NCBI GenBank assembly: GCA_029194535.1
Contig: JARFXR010000002.1
Coordinates: 124,001-188,000, forward strand
Direction: 5' to 3'
DNA: 64,000 nucleotides
Source of the DNA: Nitrospira sp.
Lineage (GTDB): Bacteria > Nitrospirota > Nitrospiria > Nitrospirales > Nitrospiraceae
Shown: piece by piece, positions 12,975 to 13,592 of the stretch
Layout of the letters: every line of letters starts with the position of its first letter
Numbering within the stretch: the first letter of the stretch is position 1
Program-made: the position numbers and the translations under genes
Notes under the pieces: model-generated
What the model was told of the DNA's origin: nothing
Database searches by the model: none
Seen by the model: only the letters and a program-made list of their open reading frames with translations

Positions 12975-13385
12975 TCACGAGTAGGCGCCTTCGCTGTGCT
13001 GCATCGTATCCAAGCCCGTCGCCTCTTCCTGAGGCCGCACAGGCAGGCCCATGGCTCTGTCGATCCATTTCAGAATCGTATGACTGCCCGGGGACGAGTA
13101 CACATCGGCGGAGACCACCAGCGTGAGTTGAACGGCACGGTGTCCGTGTGCGGCAAAGAGACCGACAACGAGCATCCCCAGGATGCCGCCGACTCCGTGA
13201 ATTCCCACGACATTGAGGGGGATTATCATAGCCGAATCGCCTCTTCCACACAATTGCGATGTAGCACGCGACCCCGCCGACAGGGCTATGATCCTGGCTG
13301 CAAACGGATCGACGTAGCCGGCGGCCGGCGTGGCCGAGCCCGCGACGGTCACGCGCCGGCAACTCCCGGCGCCGCCATCTCATCA
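12975..13385 (-). pseudogene. Broken ammonium transporter gene
   Basis: Only the C-terminal third of an Amt protein remains. One frame reads LNVVGIHGVGGILGMLVVGL and ends QHSEGAYS like the intact amts, while the preceding WKRRFGYD segment lies in another frame, so there is a frameshift. The first 270 or so residues, with the Asp and first pore His, are missing. It still sits behind an intact ANTAR-type attenuator and promoter and before glnK, so the leader may now serve glnK-glnD-glnA. Confidence 0.88.
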
Positions 13386-13447
13386 GGGCACCACACCACG
13401 CTTGCCGACTGTACCCGATCCGGCCAATCTCAAGCCCCAAAAGAAGG

Positions 13448-13496
13448 AAAGGCGTCCTCCCGATCCTCGCTGCGCGCAGACCGAAAGGACGCCTTT
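13448..13496 (-). terminator. Intrinsic terminator of the amt/glnK leader
   Basis: AAAGGCGTCC pairs with GGACGCCTTT on the minus strand, followed by CCTTCTTTTG. The loop is long and carries its own GC-rich pairs. Confidence 0.78.
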
Positions 13497-13549
13497 GTCC
13501 TGCTCGTTGTTTCGTTCGACGCCCGGCTCCAGAAGACGCCGCTGTCTTC
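13448..13549 (-). promoter_or_regulatory. ANTAR-type attenuator before the broken amt and glnK-glnD-glnA
   Basis: Minus strand. P1 (13532-13549) is GAAGAC-AGCGGC-GTCTTC, a perfect 6-bp stem with A1 and G4 in the loop. P2 (13486-13501) is AGGAC-AAAGGC-GTCCT, with A1 and G4. The 3' half of P2 is the 5' arm of the terminator at 13448-13496. All hairpins are intact although the first gene behind it is not. Confidence 0.87.
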
Positions 13550-13562
13550 GGAATGGGTCGGA

Positions 13563-13592
13563 ATTTTATGCCCCCGGCGCCGGGTACGTCAA
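13563..13592 (-). promoter_or_regulatory. Sigma-70-like promoter of the amt/glnK leader
   Basis: Minus strand TTGACG (13587-13592), 18-bp spacer, TAAAAT (13563-13568). The expected start near 13556 lies about 7 bp before P1, the same geometry as at the nrt/cyn operon. Confidence 0.75.

Follow-up and report, generated by a model that had tools for sequence, protein, structure and literature searches.

A predicted ANTAR-type attenuator ahead of a decayed ammonium transporter gene in Nitrospira and its probable control of glnK1-glnD-glnA

We describe a leader in a Nitrospira genome that stands before a dead ammonium transporter gene, amtK, and has the anatomy of an ANTAR-type attenuator. In the explanation that we consider probable as a whole, it gates the genes behind the remnant, glnK1-glnD-glnA; the leader itself was added in this lineage to an operon with ancestral ANTAR control. 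The observed part of this explanation comprises the anatomy of the leader, a covarying RNA family, co-occurrence with ANTAR genes and gene order in relatives. The window analyzed is a stretch of 64,000 nucleotides (contig JARFXR010000002.1, positions 124,001 to 188,000), and coordinates refer to it. Its minus strand carries, in order, porin-amtA-glnK2-leader-amt remnant-glnK1-glnD-glnA-two leaders-nrtA-nrtB-nrtC-cynS-leader-amt2-amt3. Nitrospira is a major nitrite-oxidising group that also includes comammox bacteria, and to our knowledge little is known about how it switches its nitrogen-assimilation genes.

Anatomy of the leader

The leader, its neighbors and the genes behind it are as follows.

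13645-15492, minus strand: amtA (14080-15492) and glnK2 (13645-13983), downstream of a porin
13563-13592, minus strand: sigma-70-like promoter, TTGACG-18-TAAAAT, 10/12 consensus (consensus match alone)
13532-13549, minus strand: P1 hairpin, GAAGAC(AGCGGC)GTCTTC, A1/G4 hexaloop (motif search, covariance model)
13486-13501, minus strand: P2 hairpin, AGGAC(AAAGGC)GTCCT, A1/G4 hexaloop, overlapping the terminator 5' arm (motif search, covariance model)
13439-13496, minus strand: intrinsic terminator (stem at 13496-13448, followed by an interrupted T-tract) that cannot form together with P2
12975 to about 13400, minus strand: amtK remnant, C-terminal third, N-terminal two thirds missing (Pfam Ammonium_transp 264-399 of 399)
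12452-12790, minus strand: glnK1 (P-II), intact, native to the genus (95-99% amino acid identity to same-genus species; tree)
9766-12444, minus strand: glnD (PII uridylyltransferase)
8309-9739, minus strand: glnA (glutamine synthetase)

An earlier note on this DNA had called the promoter, P1, P2 and terminator perfect. All of the parts are present: A1 and G4 are found in both hexaloops (P1 AGCGGC, P2 AAAGGC), the closing C-G pairs are intact, as is the overlap of P2 with the terminator, and the terminator stem at 13496-13448 (about -35 kcal/mol) takes its 5' arm from the P2 loop and the P2 3' arm. Only four sites in the 4-Mb genome, all within the nitrogen cluster, carry the exact stem AAAGGCGTCC..GGACGCCTTT, and together with the P2 5' arm it is in gene orientation at 4/4 of them. 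"Perfect" is too strong a word, as the P1 loop has G at its second position, which is A in 79 of 81 parsed Nitrospira leaders, P2 is built of five pairs against six in most relatives, and the T-tract is interrupted (CCTTCTTTT). The P1-P2 linker is about 30 nt, with 19-28 nt found in most Nitrospira leaders. Given its interrupted T-tract, the terminator could be weak, and the strength of this copy is uncertain because of the P1 loop G, the 30-nt linker and the T-tract.

The leader belongs to the dual-hairpin RNA of ANTAR antiterminators. A covariance model (R1), trained on 17 P1-P2 leaders taken from other Nitrospira genomes and on no sequence of the window, matched it with 28.8 bits (E 5.4e-6), which together with the anatomy supports the earlier assignment as an attenuator of the P1/P2/terminator kind. 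In the 17-leader alignment, 96% of cells retain the proposed pairing and 8 of 12 pairs have changed on both sides; its covariation score was reached by 0/500 shuffles, and the covariation is lost once pairing partners are slid. A motif scan of 1.38 Mb found 28 combinations of P1, P2 and terminator on the gene strand versus none on the opposite strand, and every window match of model R1 lies on the minus strand. Rfam, at its gathering threshold, listed no family for this leader.

These results also bear on a simpler possibility, that the element is a plain terminator closing the amtA-glnK2 operon, that the sequence behind it is decayed, and that glnK1-glnD-glnA are transcribed from some other place. 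Its position about 150 bp past the glnK2 stop and its strong stem would suit such a role, but a plain terminator needs no P1, A1/G4 loops, P2 overlap or promoter just upstream, nor does it account for the match to the held-out model. It also requires another promoter, and no other minus-strand promoter-like site lies between the leader and glnK1. Sequence scans of that interval found no other sigma-70-like and no sigma-54-like site, and no second sigma-70-like site besides 13592-13563 was found on the minus strand from 7900 to 17500. We give the plain terminator little credence. A separate promoter before glnK had been named beforehand as counter-evidence to control by the leader, and none appeared in the sigma-70-like and sigma-54-like scans.

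The amtK remnant and the genes behind it

The first gene behind the leader is, as reported earlier, a frameshifted amt fragment, truncated to its C-terminal third and carrying one -1 and one +1 frameshift. In a reading pieced together from two frames, the fragment is most similar over 122 positions to the amtK genes that adjoin glnK in same-genus species (52-57% amino acid identity). At the nucleotide level it shares 68-72% with these orthologues, which share 74-82% among themselves. From these matches we identify the remnant as the orthologue of amtK, the native gene ahead of glnK1. The other amt genes of the window, amtA, amt2 and amt3, are not its best matches. Separate cases of amtK cut to a C-terminal piece beside glnK1 are seen in two other genomes (L018 and L020), with no leader before the piece; in L018 the search returned no leader, and its ANTAR gene, with one partial match, seems to be broken as well.

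With amt dead and no other promoter-like site between the leader and glnK, the proposal that glnK-glnD-glnA is the functional cargo of the leader is upheld. The gaps of less than 50 bp described for this string are correct for glnK-glnD (7 bp) and glnD-glnA (26 bp); the gap from the amt remnant to glnK is 184 bp.

In the mechanism we favor, RNA polymerase would start near 13555 and make P1, then P2. If no active ANTAR protein is present, the 3' arm of P2 would pair with the downstream GGACGCCTTT, and transcription would end near 13447. An active GAF-GAF-ANTAR protein would grip the two hexaloops and hold P2, allowing transcription to pass the dead amtK remnant into glnK1-glnD-glnA, and the terminator would likewise act on transcripts running on from porin-amtA-glnK2 upstream. 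The predicted elements of this scheme are use of the promoter, binding by the protein, the signal, and a transcript that extends as far as glnA. Several points count against it, among them the G in the P1 loop, the interrupted T-tract and the many ANTAR-positive genomes without a leader match (see below). The untranslated stretch ahead of glnK1, about 660 nt long, invites Rho-dependent loss, and the 30-nt linker exceeds those of EutV targets, although 19-28 nt is usual across Nitrospira leaders.

Alternatively, the main product of the leader might be a short RNA, ended at the terminator, by which the ANTAR protein is titrated, in the manner of EutX and Rli55, which are ANTAR-binding sRNAs. An element that packs a promoter of its own, P1-P2 and a terminator into about 110 nt, and that has a dead gene first behind it, could be of this type. 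However, the terminated form uses up P2 in the terminator, intact and co-directional glnK1-glnD-glnA follow downstream with small gaps, and the same architecture stands ahead of live genes elsewhere, making titration a highly improbable main function.

Gene order in relatives and origin of the leader

The closest genomes compared have about 80% GlnD identity. In four of the same genus (G001, G003, G004, G006), the order is leader-nadE-amtK-glnK-glnD-glnA, with nadE, which encodes the glutamine-dependent NAD synthetase, directly before amtK and no leader between them; nadE lies about 50 bp upstream of amtK in same-genus species. G002 and many others have leader-nadE-leader-porin-amtK, and further relatives have leader-porin-amtA-amtK. 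Motif and covariance searches found no leader immediately ahead of amtK in any relative whose locus was resolved. Within the genus, no exact AAAGGCGTCC stem precedes amtK, and a stricter motif search likewise returned none. The idea that relatives lack ANTAR control of the operon was dropped, as the covariance model placed their leaders further upstream, before nadE or porin.

The nadE leaders of relatives score 17-23 bits with model R1, yet hairpins, terminators and T-tracts are readily recognized in their sequences. At loci such as L091 (at 5306) and L094 (at 5127), these leaders have a P1 of GGAGAC(AACGGA)GTCTCC, a P2 of GGAC(AATGAC)GTCC and a long T-tract. The porin leader near position 7000 of the oriented locus in L092 and L038 (G002) has an eut-like P1-P2 linker of about 7 nt, with linkers of 19-28 nt in other leaders of the same genomes.

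Since the leaders of relatives stand before nadE or porin, and none stands directly before amtK, the leader ahead of the amtK remnant is best read, from gene order, as a lineage-specific gain at this spot. The earlier note had instead taken it as kept from amt, a view that this comparison does not support: no relative with the locus resolved has a leader directly before amtK, and leaders precede nadE and/or porin. An old amtK leader, inherited and kept by selection after the death of amtK, would explain why the leader parts are intact while the remnant has decayed (68-72% nucleotide identity versus 74-82%, with frameshifts). We nevertheless think it unlikely, as relatives with an intact amtK have nadE, porin or amtA in that place rather than a leader, and a nucleotide search for the source of the leader gave no match beyond the motif. 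Returning to a lineage-specific gain, ANTAR control of the string including glnK-glnD-glnA looks ancestral, via a leader before nadE or porin. What is conserved, judging by the sequences compared, is some ANTAR leader upstream of the glnK-glnD-glnA string.

The porin ORF (15517-17256, minus strand; its true start is probably later) forms a cassette with amtA and glnK2 that other same-genus genomes lack at the corresponding place. The nearest kin of amtA are in other genera (80-83%, with best same-genus matches of 55-64%), and in the glnK tree glnK1 nests within the genus and glnK2 falls outside the genus clade. Because glnK2 lies outside the genus clade and amtA is closest to other genera, the cassette was probably acquired. 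It separates nadE from the glnK1 operon in this genome, with the leader just before the remnant; nadE itself (C2:158487-160253, window 34487-36253) is now about 20 kb from the glnK1 operon, with a weak leader match ahead of it (36303-36357, minus strand, 11.8 bits with model R1). As a tentative scenario, the cassette may have split glnK1-glnD-glnA from the nadE leader, and once amtK had decayed a new ANTAR attenuator may have been recruited ahead of the remnant and have restored the same control, so that the position of control would be conserved and not the leader sequence.

The ANTAR protein and other leaders of the window

The window also contains a candidate antiterminator and further leaders.

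52117-53475, minus strand: GAF-GAF-ANTAR protein, candidate antiterminator, sole PF03861 protein of the genome
50942-51009, minus strand: P1-P2 leader at the start of a porin-like ORF, 49348-50952 (23.7 bits, E 1e-4)
17134-17190, minus strand: leader before porin-amtA-glnK2 (28.3 bits, model R1)
8146-8231, minus strand: leader 1 before nrtA, P1-P2 8231-8175 and terminator 8186-8146 (53.1 bits)
8014-8054, minus strand: leader 2 (tandem) before nrtA, P2 and terminator, P1-like hairpin with GNNGNA loop
3950-4038, minus strand: leader before amt2 (2524-3867; 48.7 bits)

An ANTAR gene is present, as a single copy, in 110 of 147 genomes of the order and is missing from the other 37. Leaders were found in 62 of the 110 ANTAR-positive genomes versus 1 of the 37 ANTAR-negative ones (Fisher p ~1e-9), and the single match among the latter is weak. 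Nearly half of the ANTAR-positive genomes are without a leader match, most of them belonging to distant families, for which model R1 lacks sensitivity. In genus g2, by a hand count of listed genomes, leaders occur in 9/9 genomes with the ANTAR gene and in 1/20 without it; the gene and the leader matches are missing together in many genomes of this genus. In deeper relatives the ANTAR gene is directly ahead of leader-nadE-glnD, at 50-500 bp from the leader in most. On the strength of this adjacency and of the co-occurrence over 147 genomes, the GAF-GAF-ANTAR protein is tied to the leaders by location and co-occurrence, and we infer that it binds them.

Several features of the other leaders are worth recording. 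In the second nrtA leader, the P1-like hexaloop follows GNNGNA rather than ANNGNN (GGCGAA, GTGGCA and GCTGTA, among others, across several genomes), and the same place is occupied in many relatives, with P2 and terminator retained. Just upstream of the amt2 leader, an inverted repeat, TTGTCAGCC-N12-GGCTGACAA (about 4047-4080, minus strand), is a possible operator or terminator. The porin-like ORF at 49348-50952 is just upstream of urea-transporter-like genes (a substrate-binding ORF at 47931-49400 and permease ORFs), and the urea uptake genes downstream of its leader may belong to the same regulon. An Rfam match to 5_ureB_sRNA on the plus strand (40031-40327, 73 bits) is probably ureB coding sequence rather than an sRNA.

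Significance and comparison with known systems

These observations suggest that a single GAF-GAF-ANTAR protein acts via RNA leaders on the ammonium, nitrate, NAD-synthetase and P-II/GlnD/glutamine-synthetase genes of Nitrospira, and possibly on urea uptake, with the leaders providing a short list of testable sites. In the window, a controlled position appears to have outlived the first gene of its operon. In the library of papers searched, none was found that links ANTAR to Nitrospira.

Both the mechanism and the kinds of target gene have precedents. Ramesh et al. (2012) defined the ANTAR dual-hairpin target RNAs (EutV/eutP, NasR/nasF, AmiR/amiE), and predicted ANTAR RNAs in other bacteria precede P-II, ammonium, urea and nitrate transporter, and glutamine synthetase genes (PMC3369931). 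In EutV, loop positions A1 and G4, closure by C-G pairs and overlap of P2 with the terminator have been shown to matter (PMC3369931). Like these RNAs, the Nitrospira leaders have two small A1/G4 hexaloop hairpins with P2 overlapping an intrinsic terminator, and several of them stand before nitrogen genes in one genome. They differ from eut RNAs in their linkers, mostly 19-28 nt and 30 nt ahead of the amtK remnant. Natural linkers of EutV targets are 5-12 nt, and lengthening them abolished antitermination (PMC3369931, PMC8934654), although the definition of the family permits a variable P1-P2 linker (PMC3369931). The longer, family-wide linker makes the binding geometry of interest. The dead first gene behind the amtK-remnant leader is a further difference from known ANTAR targets. 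The pairing of an ANTAR protein with a leader before nitrate uptake genes resembles the NasS-NasT and NasR antitermination of nitrate assimilation, but whereas NasR has a NIT domain and NasT is of the receiver type, the Nitrospira candidate is a GAF-GAF-ANTAR protein and the only ANTAR protein of its genome.
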